A stretch of 64,000 nucleotides of DNA from Chloroflexota bacterium (GTDB lineage: Bacteria > Chloroflexota > Anaerolineae > Promineifilales > Promineifilaceae): assembly GCA_022616275.1 (NCBI GenBank), contig JAKEFB010000261.1:1-64000 (forward strand). The letters run 5' to 3'. Within the stretch, counting starts at the first letter, position 1, and each line of letters opens with the position of its first letter. Below, one piece after another: positions 2,488 to 8,892 of the stretch. The position numbers and the translations under genes are program-made. The notes under the pieces are model-generated. The model worked only from the letters and a program-made list of their open reading frames with translations. It had not been told where the DNA came from and made no database searches.

Positions 2488-3197
2488 GCTTCCATCCCCG
2501 GTTCAAACTTGTACCCCACCCCCCAGACGGTCAGCAGCCGTTGCGGTTGGCTGGGGTTGACCTCAATTTTCTCTCGCAGACGGCGGATATGAACCGTCAC
2601 CGTGCTGGGGTCCACGTAATCGGAAAAGCCCCAGACGTTCTCCAGCAGCCGGTCCCGGCTAAAGACCTGGCGGGGGTGACTGGCCATGAACCATAGCAGG
2701 TTAAATTCGGTCGCAGTCAGCTCTACTTCCTGGCCGCGCACGTGTACCAGGCGGGTCAGCGGGTCAATAACCAGATCGCCATATTTGATCGGCCGCCCTT
2801 CCTGCTGCAAGCCAGCCGGCCCCCGCGACCGCCGCAGAACGGTCTTCACCCGAGCCACCAGCTCGGCCGGCGAAAAAGGCTTGACCACGTAATCGTCCGC
2901 GCCCAGCTCCAGACCATAAATCCGGTCCGTTTCCTGGCTGCGGGCCGTCAGCATAATTACCGGCACGTTGGTCGCCGGGTCATCCCGCAGGCGGCGCATA
3001 ATCTCCAGCCCATCCACCTTGGGCAGCATCAGGTCCAGCACGACCAGGGCCGGCAGACGTTCGTGAATGGCTGCCAGGGCCTGCCGGCCGTCCCGGGCCG
3101 TGCGGACCTGGAATCCCTCTCGCCGCAAATAGAGACTCACCACTTCGACCACCGAAGCCTCGTCGTCTACCACCAGGATTTCTTCTGACTCAGTCAC
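2484..3197 (-). CDS. OmpR-family response regulator
   Basis: Two-domain regulator of about 237 residues. The receiver has the acidic pair D11-D12, phospho-acceptor D55 (VVLDLMLPK) and the conserved Lys in YVVKPFS; the C-terminal winged helix has the OmpR/PhoB pattern (TEFNLLWFMASHP, STVTVHIRRLREK, TVWGVGYKF). I chose the GTG at 3195-3197: a longer frame to 3260 would encode residues from an intergenic tandem repeat. It sits first in an operon with the kinase at 1138-2487 and almost certainly receives phosphate from it. Its targets are unknown. Confidence 0.92.
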   Translation of the reverse strand: MTESEEILVVDDEASVVEVVSLYLRREGFQVRTARDGRQALAAIHERLPALVVLDLMLPKVDGLEIMRRLRDDPATNVPVIMLTARSQETDRIYGLELGADDYVVKPFSPAELVARVKTVLRRSRGPAGLQQEGRPIKYGDLVIDPLTRLVHVRGQEVELTATEFNLLWFMASHPRQVFSRDRLLENVWGFSDYVDPSTVTVHIRRLREKIEVNPSQPQRLLTVWGVGYKFEPGMEA

Positions 3198-3496: not shown

Positions 3497-5104
3497 ATGA
3501 AACAACCTTCCCTGGCATTAGGCGCGCTGCTTGGCGGGCTGACCTCTCTGCCGGTTATGGCTTTATCTTACCTGGCCGAACAACTGGTTGGCCTGCCTTT
3601 CGTGCCCTTTGCTATTTTCGACTGGTTGGCCCGCGTGCTGCCCGGCGACGTGGTCACGCTGGGCATTGACGCCATGGTCGAGCTGATCATCAGCCTGAAT
3701 CTCGGCCCGACCAGCGAGGCGGCCAAGAGCCTGGAAAAGCTGCTGGCCCTGCTCCTCTTCCTTTTTCTTGGAGTGGTCCTGGGCACGGCCGTGGCCTGGG
3801 CCACGCGGCGAGCGCCAGAACAAGGCCGGCAGATGGGGGTAATGCTTGGTTTTGCCACCTTCTTTTTCCTCGTCTTGGTGACATTGAGCCAGGAGTTCTC
3901 CGGCAATCCGCTATTGGCGGTTATCTGGCTGGCCATTCTCCTGATAAGCTGGGGCAGCACCCTGGGCGCTCTCCTGGCCGGGCCGGTGATGGCCCCGGCC
4001 GACGACGAGACGCGCCGGGCTCGCCGGGACCTCTTGCTCAAGCTGGCCGGCGGCTCCGTAGGAGTGGCCCTGGGAGCCTGGGGCCTGGGCCGTCTCCTGG
4101 CCGGCCAGGCCGAGGCAACGGGAGCCGGCCGGCCACTGGCCGAACTCCAGCCCACGCCGGCGGCCACGGCTACCCGTAAAGCGGATCCCATGTCGGCCGC
4201 CACCCTGCGCGACCAGGTAGCGGCGGCCCCTGGTACCCGGCCGGAACTCACGGCCAACGAAGCCTTTTACCGCATTGACATCAATACCCGGCCGCCGGTC
4301 GCCGAAAAAGAGAGCTGGCGGTTGGAAGTGGCCGGCCTCTTCACCAACCCCGGCTCCCTGACCCTGGAAGAGCTAATGGCCTACCCAGCCATTACCCAGC
4401 CGATTACGCTCAGTTGTATTTCCAACCGCGTCGGCGGCGACCTGATTGGCACCAGCAATTGGACCGGCGTGCGGCTGCGCGACCTGGTAATGGACCTGGG
4501 ACTGCGGCCGGAAGCCAGATCCCTTTACCTGGAAGCAGCCGATGGCTTTTACGAAAGTGTGGGCTTGATGGACATCATGGATCCCCGGACCCTGCTCGTC
4601 TATGGCATGAACGGCGAAACGCTGCCGTTGGACCATGGCTTCCCCCTCCGCGTCTACATTCCCAACCGCTACGGCATGAAACAGCCCAAGTGGATCGTCA
4701 AAATGACGGCCCTGGACGGGGAGGGCCGGGGTTACTGGGTAGACCGGGGCTGGAGCAAAGAGGCCCGGCCGCAAATCGTCTCCGTCATTGACACCGTGGC
4801 CACCGGCCAACCGGCCGCCGATGGCCGCATCCCTATCGGCGGCATCGCCTGGGCCGGCGACCGGGGCATCCAGAAAGTGGAGTTGCAATTTGATGGTGGG
4901 GAATGGGTGGAAGCCACGTTGCGCACGCCACCCCTCAGCCCGCTCACCTGGGTCCAGTGGCGCTACGACTGGGTTGCCCCGCCCGGCAGCCATACTATCC
5001 GCGTCCGGGCCACCGATGGGACCGGCTTGCTGCAAACCGAGGAAGAACAGGGCGTCCGGCCGGATGGGGCGACCGGTTACCATTCACAGCGGGTGCGAAT
5101 CTAG
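3497..5104 (+). CDS. Membrane-anchored sulfite-oxidase-like molybdopterin oxidoreductase
   Basis: Protein of 535 residues. The N-terminal 205 residues contain about five membrane segments (near 5-25, 28-46, 82-101, 115-133, 138-158), then a Thr/Ala/Pro linker, then a sulfite-oxidase-type Mo-cofactor domain (about 255-450). Cys307 in LSCISNRVGG is the expected molybdenum ligand; a C-terminal Mo-co dimerisation-type Ig domain (about 455-535) includes WAGDRGIQKVELQFD. The internal ATG at 3497 has AAGGA six bases upstream; an in-frame start at 3395 lies in the CATTCGCG repeat. The catalytic domain is probably outside the membrane. The substrate is unknown. The stop is TAG. Confidence 0.85.
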   Translation: MKQPSLALGALLGGLTSLPVMALSYLAEQLVGLPFVPFAIFDWLARVLPGDVVTLGIDAMVELIISLNLGPTSEAAKSLEKLLALLLFLFLGVVLGTAVAWATRRAPEQGRQMGVMLGFATFFFLVLVTLSQEFSGNPLLAVIWLAILLISWGSTLGALLAGPVMAPADDETRRARRDLLLKLAGGSVGVALGAWGLGRLLAGQAEATGAGRPLAELQPTPAATATRKADPMSAATLRDQVAAAPGTRPELTANEAFYRIDINTRPPVAEKESWRLEVAGLFTNPGSLTLEELMAYPAITQPITLSCISNRVGGDLIGTSNWTGVRLRDLVMDLGLRPEARSLYLEAADGFYESVGLMDIMDPRTLLVYGMNGETLPLDHGFPLRVYIPNRYGMKQPKWIVKMTALDGEGRGYWVDRGWSKEARPQIVSVIDTVATGQPAADGRIPIGGIAWAGDRGIQKVELQFDGGEWVEATLRTPPLSPLTWVQWRYDWVAPPGSHTIRVRATDGTGLLQTEEEQGVRPDGATGYHSQRVRI

Positions 5105-5107
5105 CTC

Positions 5108-5150
5108 CAACAACTATCAACTATCAACCACCAACTGTCAACTACCAAAC
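5108..5150. repeat. Tandem heptamer repeat (CAACTAT-type)
   Basis: Six adjacent 7-base units from 5111: CAACTAT, CAACTAT, CAACCAC, CAACTGT, CAACTAC, CAAACGT. They begin four bases after the oxidoreductase stop codon. Confidence 0.85.
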
Positions 5151-5214
5151 GTTGCCAATCAGCTCCGGCCGGGAGATAATGGGTACCAGCTATCCCATTC
5201 GTTGAGGTCTTGCT

Positions 5215-6450
5215 TTGCCACGACGTGCCCTGCCCTGGCTTCCGGTTTTATTTTTGGTTGCCTGTAATCGCTCTGCTGTTTCCCTGACGCCCGCCACTTT
5301 AGACACACTGGCCACACCTGCTACTCAGGTGGCGGCATCTATAGGAACGGCCGCGCCCGCTCCCACAACGACACCGCAGTTCCCCGCGGCCATACCAACC
5401 GAAACGCCGGCGCCAACCAACACCCCCAACCCAACAGCAACGCCGACTATTCCGCCGGCCGTCGTCGAGGTAGCGGGCGCGACGCTGGCCTCCGGCTTCT
5501 CCATGACCAGGTACGCCGATATGTACCGCCCTACCGGCCTGGCTTTTGACGCCGCCGGCCGGCTGTACGCCACCTCCTTTGATGGAACCATCCACGTCTT
5601 TGTGGACAGCGACGGCGACGGCCGGGCTGACGTGGATAGCATTTTCTTTGCCGGCTTCAACATTCCCCTGGGTGTCACCGTCCGGCCGAATACCGTAGAT
5701 GTGTACGTTTCTAGCTTTGGCAAAATCTCCATCCTGCGCGACCGCGACGGCGACCTGGTGGCAGAAGAAGCGGTCAACTTTGTCCGCGACCTGCCGGCGG
5801 ACCTGCACCAGAACGACAATCTCAAATTTGGCCCGGACGGCTGGCTGTACATGGGCATTGGCTCCACCTGCGACGCCTGCGTCGAGGCCGACGCCCGCAG
5901 TGGCACGATTATGCGTTTCGACCCGGCCAGCGGCGCGGGCGAGGTCTACGCCACTGGGATGCGCAACCCTTACGACCTGGCTTTCCACCCCCTCACCGGC
6001 GACCTCTTTGCCACCGACAATGGCCGGGACGACCTGGGGCTGGACACACCCCTGGAGGAGTTGAACCACATTGTCCAGGGCGGCGACTACGGCTGGCCGG
6101 ACTGTTGGGACGATCTGGCCGGGATTGGCTGCGCCGGCACGCGGCCGGCCATCGCCTTCTTTGAACCCCGCTCCTCGGCCAACAGCCTCGACTTTTACAC
6201 CGGCGGGCACTTCCCGGCCGAATACCAATACAACCTCTTCGTGGCCGTCTTCGGCTCCTTCTTGAAGGACGTGACCCGAGGAGTGGCTCGCGTTGAGCTG
6301 TCGCCGGCCGGCGATAGTTACACCGCCCAGATCTCCTGGCTGGCCCGCTGGCCAGGCATGCCCCTGGGCCTCATCACCGGCCCCGACGGCGCCCTTTACG
6401 TCGGCGATTACATCAACGGCGGCATTTACCGGATCAGTTACGGCTCATAG
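5215..6450 (+). CDS. PQQ-type sugar dehydrogenase-like lipoprotein
   Basis: Secreted six-bladed beta-propeller of the glucose/sorbosone dehydrogenase family, about 411 residues. A signal peptide ends in a lipobox (LFLVAC, Cys17), followed by a Pro/Thr linker to about residue 85. Propeller signatures include RPTGLAFDAAGRLY, a calcium-like DSDGDGRAD loop, GPDGWLYMGIGST, GMRNPYDLAFHP and GGDYGWPDCW. It probably oxidises sugars or aldoses outside the membrane with PQQ, but the specificity is not readable. The start is a TTG with a GAGGT site upstream. It follows the molybdo-oxidoreductase in the same direction, 110 bases apart. Confidence 0.85.
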   Translation: MPRRALPWLPVLFLVACNRSAVSLTPATLDTLATPATQVAASIGTAAPAPTTTPQFPAAIPTETPAPTNTPNPTATPTIPPAVVEVAGATLASGFSMTRYADMYRPTGLAFDAAGRLYATSFDGTIHVFVDSDGDGRADVDSIFFAGFNIPLGVTVRPNTVDVYVSSFGKISILRDRDGDLVAEEAVNFVRDLPADLHQNDNLKFGPDGWLYMGIGSTCDACVEADARSGTIMRFDPASGAGEVYATGMRNPYDLAFHPLTGDLFATDNGRDDLGLDTPLEELNHIVQGGDYGWPDCWDDLAGIGCAGTRPAIAFFEPRSSANSLDFYTGGHFPAEYQYNLFVAVFGSFLKDVTRGVARVELSPAGDSYTAQISWLARWPGMPLGLITGPDGALYVGDYINGGIYRISYGS

Positions 6451-6576: not shown

Positions 6577-7398
6577 ATGTCAAATCGTTTTTGGCTCTAC
6601 AACTTCGTTCCCGGCCTGAAGCAGCCCGTCAGCCGGCGCTGGTACGAATATATTTCCAGGCTGGACCGGGACGCCCACATGCTTTTTATGAACTTCGGCT
6701 ACACCAGCCTGGACCCGGCTCACAAACCGCTGGCGCTATCGGCCGAAGAGGAACCCCACCGCTACCCATTGCAACTATACCATCACGTCGCCAGCGCCAT
6801 TGATTGGACAGGGCTGGACGCTTTAGAGGTCGGCTCCGGCCGGGGCGGCGGGGCGGCTTACGTCATGCGACGCTTCAAGCCCCGATCGTTGACCGGAATT
6901 GACATTACCGCTAACGCCGTTAGCTTCTGCCAGCGTTACCACGTGGTCGAGGGGCTATCCTTCAGGCGCGGCGACGCCGAGTCTTTGCCCTTCGCCGACC
7001 ATTCCTTTGGCGTGGTCATGAACGTGGAGTCGTCGTTGTACTATCCAAACGTGGAACGTTTTTTCAGCGAAGTCGTCCGGGTGCTGCGGCCGGACGGCTA
7101 TTTTCTGTACGCCGACATTCGCTATGCCGACGAAGTTGAGCGCTGGCGAGGACAGCTCAGAGATACCGGTCTGCGACTATCGAAGGAAGAGAACATCACC
7201 CCCAACGTCGTCCGCGCCCTGGAGCTAGATCGGGAGCGCCGGCAAACGCTTATCCGCCGCTACACGCCCCGGCTGCTTCTCAAGCCCACTTACCACTTTG
7301 CCGGGGTGACGGGGGCCGAGCTGGCCCGCGACCGGCCGAAGGACGGCGAGCGACTCTACCTGAACTTTTGCTTCCGCAAAGGTGGGGAGGCATCATGA
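6577..7398 (+). CDS. Class I SAM-dependent methyltransferase
   Basis: Protein of 273 residues. Motif I is ALEVGSGRGGG (82-92), then the acidic GIDIT (107-111) and post-motif LRPDGYFLYAD, all typical of the Methyltransf_11/phthiotriol-methyltransferase-like group, which often methylates hydroxyls of lipids. The substrate cannot be told. A strong ribosome site (AAGGAGG) precedes the ATG. Its TGA overlaps the ATG of the VOC gene by 4 bases (ATGA), so the two are coupled. Confidence 0.85.
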   Translation: MSNRFWLYNFVPGLKQPVSRRWYEYISRLDRDAHMLFMNFGYTSLDPAHKPLALSAEEEPHRYPLQLYHHVASAIDWTGLDALEVGSGRGGGAAYVMRRFKPRSLTGIDITANAVSFCQRYHVVEGLSFRRGDAESLPFADHSFGVVMNVESSLYYPNVERFFSEVVRVLRPDGYFLYADIRYADEVERWRGQLRDTGLRLSKEENITPNVVRALELDRERRQTLIRRYTPRLLLKPTYHFAGVTGAELARDRPKDGERLYLNFCFRKGGEAS

Positions 7399-7808
7399 AT
7401 TGGACGTTGGAAGTAGTCGTAGTTCCGGTCTCGGACGTGGACCGCGCCAAGGCCTTCTACGCCGAACAGGTTGGCTTCAACGTTGACCACGACACCAAGA
7501 TCAGTGATGAGTTACGTGTTGTCCAACTGACTCCCCCGGGATCGGGCTGCTCGATTGTCGTGGGGAATGGCATCGGGGAAATGCCGCCCGGCTCGCTCAA
7601 GGGATTACAGTTGGTTGTCTCAGACATCCACGCGGCGCGTGCCCAGCTCCTCGAGCGAGGAGTGGAGGTCAGCGAGGTCCAGGTGATCGGCCCGGATGGA
7701 TCTCGCCCAGCCCGTGAGGGAGACGCCCTCGATAACGTCGGATTTATCTTCTTCAGTGATCCGGATGGCAACGGCTGGGCTGTGCAGCAGATATCTGCCC
7801 GGGGTTAG
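7395..7808 (+). CDS. VOC (glyoxalase/bleomycin-resistance) family protein
   Basis: Protein of about 137 residues. The VOC fold pattern is clear: an N-terminal VVVPVSDVDRAKAFYAEQVGF, a middle LQLVVSDIHAARAQLLERGVEV, and a C-terminal FIFFSDPDGNGWAVQQ that carries the usual acidic metal ligand region. The ATG overlaps the methyltransferase stop. VOC proteins include isomerases, dioxygenases and resistance proteins; which applies here is unknown. The last 189 bases are antisense to the long tail of the PTH2-like frame. The stop is TAG, so ordinary TAG termination is used right beside the CUA tRNA locus. Confidence 0.88.
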   Translation: MNWTLEVVVVPVSDVDRAKAFYAEQVGFNVDHDTKISDELRVVQLTPPGSGCSIVVGNGIGEMPPGSLKGLQLVVSDIHAARAQLLERGVEVSEVQVIGPDGSRPAREGDALDNVGFIFFSDPDGNGWAVQQISARG

Positions 7809-8189
7809 ACCAGTGACGCATAAATGGCCCGGCGGGCCGCGCTCGCGGGGGTTGGCGCTGGGCTCGCGCCAGAGGGAGAACCGTTTGAAGATGCGCCGGC
7901 CGCCGTCGCCGACAGGCTCGGTGCAGACGGCCGTAACCCCCATGTCCTCGTCCGGCTCATAGAAGCGTACACAACGAATACCGGCCGCCTCGATGCGCGC
8001 CACGGCGAACTGTAACTGAGCCTCCGACGGCACGTGGAGCACGACCAGGTGGCAAGGCGCCTCCGGCTGGTAAAAGCGGTGGCCGGCCGCCAGGCAGGCG
8101 TGGCCGACCTGGACGACTTGATCGGCCAGCGGGATGTCTGCCCGGACCAGGACATAGGTGTACCAGGGAAGTTCCTACGCTTCAGGCAC
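7620..8189 (-). CDS. PTH2-like protein with in-frame UAG at codon 5 (recoded gene or pseudogene)
   Basis: From codon 9 on, the frame encodes a peptidyl-tRNA-hydrolase-2-like domain of about 100 residues: YTYVLVRADIPLADQ, QVGHACLAAGHRF, HLVVLHVPSEAQL, then GVTAVCTEPVG. The only start with a ribosome site is GTG at 8187-8189, six bases after AAGGAG (8196-8201) and overlapping the stop of the gene upstream. Codon 5 is TAG (8175-8177), and no ATG, GTG or TTG follows before codon 50. A tRNA with anticodon CUA lies 585 bases upstream on the same strand. The frame runs about 80 codons past the domain, antisense to the VOC gene, so the end may also be damaged. Alternatives: decay, or a sequencing error. 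Confidence 0.5.
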
Positions 8190-8637
8190 GGGCCACTCCT
8201 TCGCCGACCGGGGCGGTCTCCGGCACAAGGTAAGCGTCGAACGGGAAAGCGGCCGGGGCAAACTGCTCCGGCCGGTACTGGTATGGCGAGCGCGCTGGAA
8301 CCAGGCGGCGCACCTGCTGTAACATCTCCGGCGTAACGACACCGTCGAAGGGAGCCAGCAGCCAGCTCTCGCAGGCCGGCACGTGCAGCAGGGTCAGGGC
8401 GCGAAACAGCGTCCAACCCTGGAACGCGCCGTTAGCCAGCTTGCGAGGATTGGTGACGGGGGTAAAGCCCTTCCGCCAATCCTTGCCCAGCAGCGCCAGG
8501 TAGAGCAGGTGATGCGCGGCCGACAGCTCATGCCGGCGCTCGGAACGCATCAACTGGCTCCACTGGCGGCGGAGCGAATGATAAGTCTCTGGGTTGTCGA
8601 ATAATTGGGCGGTGATCGCCCGGGAAAGGGTGTTCAT
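8182..8637 (-). CDS. Unknown protein between the CUA tRNA and the PTH2-like frame
   Basis: Protein of about 151 residues that I do not recognise. It begins MNTLSRAITAQLFDNPETYH, has a helical charged N-terminal half (a HELSAAHHLLYLALLGKDWRKGF stretch) and a Pro-rich C-terminal half. There is no signal peptide or membrane segment. I chose the ATG at 8635-8637 because AAGGAG lies nine bases upstream; the longer frame to 8700 has no site. Its TGA overlaps the GTG of the PTH2-like frame by 8 bases, and it lies 134 bases downstream of the tRNA, so the three probably share a transcript. Confidence 0.75.
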   Translation of the reverse strand: MNTLSRAITAQLFDNPETYHSLRRQWSQLMRSERRHELSAAHHLLYLALLGKDWRKGFTPVTNPRKLANGAFQGWTLFRALTLLHVPACESWLLAPFDGVVTPEMLQQVRRLVPARSPYQYRPEQFAPAAFPFDAYLVPETAPVGEGVARA

Positions 8638-8746
8638 CTGTTGTATCTCCTTTTTTCTGGTCAGGTAACGTGCAATGACGGGGCGGCCAGGCGGCCGCAA
8701 GGGACCGGAGATACAACGGGGGAGCTCTCGATTTATGAGAAAAAAG

Positions 8747-8768
8747 CTACAACATCAACCTGCTCCTT
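8747..8768 (-). promoter_or_regulatory. Ribosome site plus ATG-TTG-TAG mini-frame just after the tRNA
   Basis: Four bases after the encoded CCA of the tRNA, the minus strand has AAGGAG (8768-8763), a 7-base spacer, then ATG TTG TAG. If the TAG were read, the frame stays open to 8528, across the ribosome site and start of the next gene. It may be a leader that senses UAG reading, or chance. A T6 run (8740-8745) follows. Confidence 0.35.
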
Positions 8769-8771
8769 GCC

Positions 8772-8846
8772 TGGTGCGCCACGCGAGAATCGAACTCGCT
8801 TCAAGCGGGTTTAGAGTCCGCCGCCCATCCAACGAGCATGTGGCGC
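8772..8846 (-). tRNA. tRNA with anticodon CUA (amber-reading, suppressor-type)
   Basis: A complete cloverleaf folds by eye on the minus strand: 7-bp acceptor stem (GCGCCAC/GTGGCGC, perfect), D arm GCTC/GGGC with a GTTGGAT loop, anticodon stem GCGGA/CCCGC with one A-C mismatch at 31-39, loop CTCTAAA, 5-base variable loop, perfect T stem GCGAG/CTCGC with loop TTCGATT, discriminator A, and encoded CCA (8772-8774). With U33 fixed, positions 34-36 are CTA (8812-8814), which pairs with UAG. Reading it as Arg(UCU) would break the stem and lose U33. The amino acid it carries is unknown. It lacks the short D-loop and truncated features of pyrrolysine tRNA. Confidence 0.85.
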
Positions 8847-8862
8847 GAGAGCTTTCCAAGAC

Positions 8863-8892
8863 ATTATAACCCGCAGAATGTTTTGCAGGCAA
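8863..8892 (-). promoter_or_regulatory. Promoter of the CUA tRNA unit
   Basis: On the minus strand a perfect -10 TATAAT (8868-8863) is preceded by TTGCCT (8892-8887) at 18 bases. Transcription would start about 10 bases before the mature tRNA 5' end, so the tRNA has its own dedicated promoter. Confidence 0.6.

Follow-up and report, generated by a model that had tools for sequence, protein, structure and literature searches.

A putative translational switch run by an amber-suppressor tRNA in a Chloroflexota bacterium and in large phages

The locus

A short run of genes and signals on the minus strand of a 64,000-nucleotide stretch of Chloroflexota DNA (the window; its coordinates are given here on the minus strand unless marked plus) places a transfer RNA (tRNA) with the anticodon CUA ahead of reading frames that carry its stop codon, UAG, close to their start. 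Read along that strand, the order is a TATAAT box, the CUA tRNA, a mini open reading frame (ORF), a hairpin predicted to cover the following ribosome-binding site, a gene that we call P0003 and a gene resembling PTH2 peptidyl-tRNA hydrolases. The host genome is 8.5 Mb in size and is listed as 98% complete. Since it contains release factor 1 (RF1), scored above the family cut-off, and since TAG terminates 14 of the 47 script-called window ORFs of at least 120 codons, UAG can be taken as an ordinary stop codon here, as the initial annotation of this stretch had also concluded from genes nearby.

The tRNA (8772-8846) is the sole tRNA that ARAGORN finds in the 64 kb. It has an encoded CCA and discriminator A, and its complete cloverleaf with a CUA anticodon, called by ARAGORN, accepted by Rfam (RF00005) and recovered by folding, is as expected of an amber-suppressor tRNA. 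The TATAAT box upstream (8863-8868) can be read directly in the sequence and presumably serves as the -10 element of one transcript running from the tRNA through the leader and P0003 to the PTH2-like gene. Three bases past the tRNA 3' end lies an AAGGAG ribosome-binding site (8763-8768), followed by the mini-ORF ATG TTG TAG (8747-8755), whose ATG is 16 bases from the tRNA. In the frame that readthrough of this UAG would open, codons 7 to 10 past the stop, located by pattern search, spell Arg-Ala-Pro-Pro (8717-8728). The 5' arm of the predicted hairpin (GUUGUAUCUCC, 8707-8717), an anti-Shine-Dalgarno sequence, begins at the last base of these codons, and its predicted 3' arm (8640-8650) contains the GGAG ribosome-binding site of P0003.

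P0003 (8182-8637) is a 151-residue protein of a family marked by MNTL..GKDWRKGF, defined by its ORF, an alignment and a structure model. No match was found in Pfam, NCBIfam or PHROGs, and the model (mean predicted local distance difference test score, pLDDT, 69) gave no convincing fold match. The PTH2-like frame overlaps the end of P0003 with its GTG and reads GTG CCT GAA GCG TAG (8175-8189), so that UAG (8175-8177) is codon 5; past it the frame continues as ELPWYTYVLVRADIPLADQVVQVGHA. The PTH2-like domain (7842-8174; model pLDDT 87.5) matches Pfam PF01981 weakly (E 0.0055, 17.3 bits, below the cut-off of 23), and a profile of 17 sequences, the window protein and 16 relatives, matches solved PTH2 structures (24bt_A, E 3e-4; 2zv3_A, E 2e-3). 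Near the end of the protein lie Arg-Gly-Pro-Pro codons (7830-7841). From there the frame extends as far as 7620, overlapping a convergent gene at 7368-7808 on the plus strand; the five bacterial relatives stop soon past the RGPP.

The initial annotation, made from the sequence alone, had described the tRNA, the TATAAT box, the gene of no known family, the stop at codon 5 and the odd 3' end, and each of these stands. It had missed the mini-ORF, the RAPP codons and the predicted hairpin.

Conservation in bacteria and viruses

Searching genomes for P0003 can be used to find further copies of the locus. It was found in 4 of 298 drawn genomes of the window's class, the host included, and scanning genome contigs gave two more loci, from a Chloroflexi bacterium and an Anaerolineae bacterium. 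Among 400 drawn genomes of the phylum the P0003 locus was detected in the host alone, so its distribution is patchy. In all six bacterial loci (the window and five others, L033 to L037) every part is kept: CUA tRNA, mini-ORF, hairpin, P0003 and UAG-gated PTH2. The tRNA lies at the equivalent place in each, 12 to 18 bases before the mini-ORF ATG, and the UAG of the PTH2-like frame is at codon 5 in all six. The initial annotation had proposed looking for joint occurrence of the tRNA, the P0003-type gene and the early UAG in homologous loci, and this is what the six display.

Viral relatives extend the comparison. Three P0003 matches in IMG/VR (L038, 378 kb; L039, 178 kb; L040, 221 kb) all have CUA tRNAs. 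Readthrough of their UAG mini-ORFs would lead to VIRPP followed by a stop, ERAPP and NKSPP, respectively, and UAG is codon 3, 6 and 3 of their PTH2 frames. A P0003 profile built from nine proteins then gave clear members beside PTH2 (L084, L116/L117, L119 and L090) and weak ones (L106; L100 with its near copies L101 and L129; L131/L132); L046, from phage XacN1, has a weak profile match and no leader. In L106 and L131, P0003 appears to be fused to PTH2. In L038 a transfer-messenger RNA (tag AENNFAFAA), two CUA tRNAs and two Lys tRNAs stand in a row upstream of the leader (2311-2668, 2937-3104).

The PTH2 gene is also present in cultured phages. A tblastn search with the PTH2-like protein returned 29 phage records, all but one larger than 230 kb, and eleven were examined. 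UAG falls one or two codons past ATG in ME3, XbC2, BF, GAP32, CBB, Kaldavass, LR756511 and LR756501. XacN1 and RAS14 (L051) carry ATG-AAG-TAG ahead of a fusion in which PTH2 stands behind what we take, from its motif, to be an HD domain (4452-5300 in both), and their gate is ambiguous because later ATGs could serve as starts; GAP32-like phages and ME3 have, adjoining PTH2, a relative of this HD-domain-like part. Seven of the 11 phages have a CUA tRNA inside the fetched stretch, and XacN1, RAS14 and LR756511 have one in another part of their records. RaK2 and Hallingskeid have no UAG gate, and pattern matches across their whole records revealed no CUA tRNA. Hallingskeid was one of four new records used as an out-of-sample check; the other three, Arash, BadAgartude (a Bixzunavirus) and LR756500, have both the UAG and a CUA tRNA within 3 kb. 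The Arash tRNA (Salmonella phage; L165, 4310-4384) is labelled Phe in its record, and ARAGORN reads its anticodon as CUA.

An early stop of this kind may explain why the gene is mis-annotated. In GAP32 the annotated gene begins past the UAG, in BF no gene is called there, and phrog_34073 spans only residues 32-108 of the 108 post-UAG residues of CBB.

A further element is found in GAP32-like phages, in which a mimic of the 23S rRNA GTPase-centre loop lies shortly upstream of the UAG-gated PTH2 (L052, 4689-4748; L044, 4480-4530; L047, about 4379; L053, about 4502). Its Rfam LSU matches are below the family cut-off (E 0.0018 in L044, 0.098 in L052). Fourteen records hold a match covering at least 80% of a 316-base query, while ME3 and XacN1 hold a 3' piece.

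An arrest-peptide-like leader

The sequence of the mini-ORF, ATGTTGTAG, is common to all six bacterial loci, and the same nine letters recur in the viral loci L038 and L039. Codons 7 to 10 after its UAG encode RAPP in the window, L036 and L037, RDPP in L033 and L034, and RSPP in L035. Within a reported class of ribosome-arrest motifs RAPP and RGPP rank as the most robust, and some activity remains when Ala is replaced by Ser or Asp (PMC12992588). Searching both strands of the window for a Met, one to nine codons, UAG, 0 to 30 codons and then R[AGSD]PP gives a single match, that of the leader, with RAPP at 8717-8728.

This search can be widened to all 16 P0003-type loci, taking the 300 bases upstream of each P0003-type start. 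With the motif relaxed to [RKH]x?PP within 30 codons of the UAG, 15 of the 16 loci match, and dinucleotide shuffles lead one to expect 0.04 matches in total. Three weak P0003 loci were recognised partly through their leaders; among the clear loci alone the motif is present in 12 of 13. Arg occupies the first position in 11 of the 15 motifs. Outside the 16-locus test, L128 has a leader, MT-UAG-IQIPP-UAG-IRGPP-stop, ahead of a different gene.

Across the leaders the 5' arm of the hairpin starts at the Pro-Pro codons or a few bases from them, and the arms covary (GUUGUAUCUCC/GGAGAUACAAC, CUGUAUCUCC/GGAGAUACAG, GUCAUAUCUCC/GGAGAUAUGAC). A stalled ribosome can be imitated in folding by removing the foot of the hairpin, that is, by deleting everything as far as ten bases beyond Pro-Pro. 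The predicted probability that the Shine-Dalgarno sequence is paired, averaged over the 16 leaders, is 0.90 for the intact structure vs 0.55 with the foot removed, at a mean cost in folding energy of 12.2 kcal/mol. The leader thus has two features of the RAPP-type class: an RxPP frame upstream of a gene, and a predicted structure near the stall site that sequesters the next ribosome-binding site.

A second motif of the same class lies at the far end of the bacterial locus. RGPP occurs near the C terminus of the PTH2-like protein in all six bacterial loci, and the L035 protein terminates exactly there; near the PTH2 end of viral loci R[AGSD]PP is found in 1 of 63. RGPP is reported, in the accessible text of the same source, to be very robust and strongly avoided (PMC12992588). 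The C-terminal RGPP of the six bacterial proteins might cause a further stall as PTH2 itself is being finished.

The identity and context of the putative gating stop

The comparison of early stops covered 87 loci, among them 63 viral loci from two scans, which were reduced to 63 clusters at 90% identity. A gate counted as strict when an ATG or GTG preceded the stop by one to eight codons and no ATG, GTG or TTG lay between the stop and an anchor, placed for all clusters five residues before the conserved Arg. Strict gates number 41 for TAG, 0 for TAA and 0 for TGA. Eight further TAG clusters are ambiguous, three have TGA with a possible later start, and 11 have no gate. Among the three TGA clusters L094 alone is gate-like: it reads MES-UGA-VLDKTYVYVF, with UGA at codon 4 and a UCA tRNA that ends 178 bases before the ATG, and no CUA tRNA was found in 12 kb.

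CUA tRNAs follow the gates. They are present in the fetched stretch of 33 of the 41 strict and 6 of the 8 ambiguous TAG clusters (39/49 together), and in 4 of the 14 clusters without a PTH2 TAG, namely 2 of the 11 ungated (L116, L128) and 2 of the 3 TGA clusters (L119, L131). Each of these four has a UAG in the leader upstream. When a UAG gate in either place is counted, ambiguous cases included, a CUA tRNA accompanies 43 of the 56 clusters with a gate and none of the 7 that lack one (p 1.4e-4, from a grouping made by hand).

The base after the stop can also be informative: suppression of UAG is more likely when a purine comes next, and termination is more likely when U does. Among 47 gates (the 41 strict UAG, 5 ambiguous UAG and the L094 UGA) it is A in 28, G in 16, C in 2 and T in 1, and at 66 TAG ends of frames of at least 150 codons, drawn from 18 phage slices and the window, it is T in 21, C in 20, A in 16 and G in 9. 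A purine therefore follows 44 of the 47 gates and 25 of the 66 frame ends (p 4e-10). In 24 of the 47 gates the stop stands at codon 3, and its position ranges from 2 to 9, as the rule permits.

The tRNAs themselves are not uniform. The fetched loci hold 62 distinct suppressor tRNAs (61 CUA and the UCA of L094) that diverge widely, with a discriminator that a rough reading gives as A in 34, G in 14, T in 12 and C in 2. Because the codon is conserved and the type of tRNA is not, the amino acid inserted may not matter.

A proposed switch

Taken together, the comparison points to a switch in translation that a dedicated amber-suppressor tRNA controls, a reading to which we assign a probability of about 0.75. 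The parts, their order, their co-occurrence, the identity of the stop codon and its readthrough-friendly context can be seen by comparing the loci; readthrough, stalling and opening of the hairpin are what we infer from them. The tRNA would probably act as an on-switch for genes that bear its stop codon near their start.

As only 16 bases separate the tRNA from the mini-ORF, the tRNA and the messenger RNA (mRNA) downstream would be made as one transcript. When RF1 wins at UAG, the mini-ORF would end after two codons and the hairpin would stay shut over the P0003 ribosome-binding site, and a ribosome on the PTH2 frame would halt at codon 5. When the suppressor tRNA wins, the ribosome would proceed to the RxPP at codons 7 to 10 past the UAG and stall, its leading edge would break the foot of the hairpin and P0003 would be translated; readthrough at the second UAG would then allow PTH2 to be made. 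Competition at UAG would therefore let output follow charged suppressor tRNA against RF1. The initial annotation had proposed that the tRNA gates the PTH2-like gene through the UAG at codon 5. That central idea gains support from the six bacterial loci and many phages, and the gate is present as described; it has to be amended in that this UAG appears to be one of two gates, the second being the arrest-peptide-like leader.

The products may hint at a purpose. Since fusions appear in two viral loci, one might guess that P0003 and PTH2 act together on peptidyl- or aminoacyl-tRNA. PTH2 could limit the suppressor, a negative feedback, or clear failed termination when RF1 is short. In GAP32-like phages the 23S mimic could be an L11 decoy with a possible link to suppression, as overexpression of the L11 C-domain is stated, in the available text of one report, to raise amber suppression (PMC6100177). 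In its broadest form the proposal is a natural and widespread circuit in which a dedicated suppressor tRNA and a release factor compete, the result being sensed both by an arrest-peptide switch and by an early stop codon in the target gene. It would sense RF1 activity (release factor 2, RF2, in the UGA form), deliver a PTH2-like enzyme and a helical partner, and give a purpose to the unexplained CUA tRNAs of jumbo phages, with the GAP32-like mimic perhaps tipping the balance by drawing off L11. We regard this wider picture as an even bet.

Care must be taken with several observations that weigh against the switch. Removal of the hairpin foot barely lowers Shine-Dalgarno pairing in the window (0.80 to 0.74), is also weak in L035 and L038, and causes no unpairing in L040 (0.74 to 0.75). 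The motif is KxPP in L040, L084 and L106 and HPP in L116, and the accessible part of the arrest-motif study calls Arg irreplaceable (PMC12992588). L090 has a UAG leader, MNTL-UAG-ISLERPGTS, without a clear arrest motif, and leaders occur in L084, L090 and L106, in whose fetched stretches no CUA tRNA was found. The same is true of 8 of the 41 strict TAG clusters: L049 and L110 carry a CUA tRNA elsewhere in the record, for L103, L108, L113 and L114 an incomplete check of pattern hits across the record found none, and for L091 and L115 the search covers the fetched stretch. Homologues with the tRNA and without the PTH2 stop, which the initial annotation had named as counting against its idea, do exist (L116, its near copy L117, L119 and L128), each with a UAG in an upstream leader instead. 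GTG and TTG directly follow the UGA of L094, where a start after the stop is thus possible, and the following GTG means that this case is not clean; L131 has a UCA tRNA and L146 a UUA tRNA with no matching gates noted. The window tRNA scores lowest among the 44 tRNAs of its genome (Rfam RF00005, 38.8 bits, cut-off 29), and by our own reading its core is non-canonical, with A at position 8, a short D loop and an A31-C39 mismatch. Finally, DNA with a suppressor does not clearly avoid ending frames in TAG, so suppression must be weak or timed.

Alternative explanations

The alternative that keeps most weight, although we hold it unlikely, retains the gate and dispenses with arrest: a readthrough ribosome would open the hairpin simply by translating across its foot. 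The readthrough frame of the bacterial loci does pass through the 5' arm, and in the modelled stalled state the ribosome-binding site keeps part of its pairing. However, 15 of 16 leaders have an [RKH]x?PP motif, and in L038, L084, L106, L116 and L119 a stop comes directly behind PP, so that in these five a ribosome could not translate across the hairpin.

Alternatively, the UAG may merely close a tiny start-stop ORF, with PTH2 beginning later by re-initiation, coupling or a non-standard start and the tRNA serving something else. In 8 of the 49 TAG clusters an ATG, GTG or TTG does lie between the UAG and the domain, which leaves these eight gates ambiguous. BadAgartude is annotated from the GTG right past the TAG, which makes its case ambiguous, and XacN1 from a later ATG. 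However, no such later start exists in 41 clusters, and an ORF of this kind would need neither UAG over UAA and UGA (41:0:0), nor a purine after the stop, nor a CUA tRNA nearby. We consider this improbable.

Genome-wide recoding of UAG (code 15), with PTH2 as one of many recoded genes, is a good deal less probable again. Code 15 with CUA tRNAs is reported in many jumbo phages, in the portion of the survey available (PMC13037316), and the 735-kb phage LR756501 (L050, 4983-5300) carries another in-frame TAG within the PTH2 domain, has two CUA tRNAs close by and may be TAG-recoded. Against recoding as the general explanation, the host has RF1 and ends long ORFs in TAG, as described above, and in 60-kb samples TAG ends 2 of 45 long frames in XacN1, 3 of 57 in RAS14, 3 of 53 in ME3, 2 of 54 in BF and 12 of 61 in LR756511.

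The UAG at codon 5 and the run-on 3' end might also mark the window's PTH2-like gene as a pseudogene, through decay or an assembly error. For the gate this reading is refuted, as the same UAG stands in all six bacterial loci and the other five frames close normally; the 3' end in the window may be damaged. A pyrrolysine system has next to no probability: ARAGORN does label these CUA tRNAs Pyl, but they differ widely from one another, the window tRNA has the D-loop GG and T-loop TTCGA that set it apart from tRNA-Pyl, and a search of the host genome (98% complete) for PylS gave two matches, at 27.9 and 24.6 bits, below the cut-off of 178.

Relation to known systems

A search of the open-access literature, with preprints and most subscription papers outside its scope, found, among the papers listed, no earlier description of this arrangement; its single elements can be compared with several known systems. 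A profile of the PTH2-like family matches solved PTH2 structures, with the Pfam match of the window protein below its cut-off. In PTH2 the lysine of the GKGK segment has a catalytic role, and in the family alignment to 2zv3 this segment is partly gapped, at the lysine-bearing stretch of two residues ahead of the Q..H motif. Competition at a stop codon also decides whether a protein is made in the programmed frameshift of the RF2 gene (prfB) and in the decoding of selenocysteine and pyrrolysine. However, prfB uses a frameshift, and the latter two use a special amino acid with its own machinery, whereas the tRNAs here are of variable type. In code 15 phages a CUA tRNA reads TAG, as it would here; there TAG is a sense codon throughout the genome, and here it would form single early gates and is otherwise a normal stop.

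Suppressor tRNAs of jumbo phages have been in need of a target. According to the available text of their report, the authors of the XacN1 genome could not identify one for its suppressor tRNAs (PMC5852040), and the portions available of the RsoM2USA report (PMC8504454) and of a jumbo-phage survey (PMC13037316) mention such tRNAs without targets of this kind. The suppressor tRNA reported for RsoM2USA is a CUA one, and a UCA suppressor is reported for Atu_ph07 (PMC6102473). The ATG-AAG-TAG before the HD-PTH2 fusion of XacN1 would be a candidate, ambiguous on account of its later ATGs. Phage suppressor tRNAs thereby gain a specific candidate target, in cultured phages and in bacteria.

If the switch is real, it would be a natural form of gene control through stop-codon competition with a built-in arrest-peptide readout. 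The nearest engineered counterpart is a synthetic feed-forward 'leak dampener', in which a suppressor tRNA and stop codons likewise gate a gene and which works with both UAG and UGA, as far as the accessible part of its description goes (PMC7969014). That device is engineered and has no arrest leader in the part described, whereas the present system is natural, with tRNA and target often in one locus. The RAPP-type arrest peptides (ApdA, ApdP, ApcA, SecM), which lie upstream of sec genes, have in common with it a short leader, a RAPP-like motif and a regulated downstream gene, and here too a predicted mRNA structure adjoins the stall site. In contrast to these, the motif here sits behind a UAG, so that a suppressor would be needed first, and the targets would be P0003 and PTH2 rather than genes of secretion.

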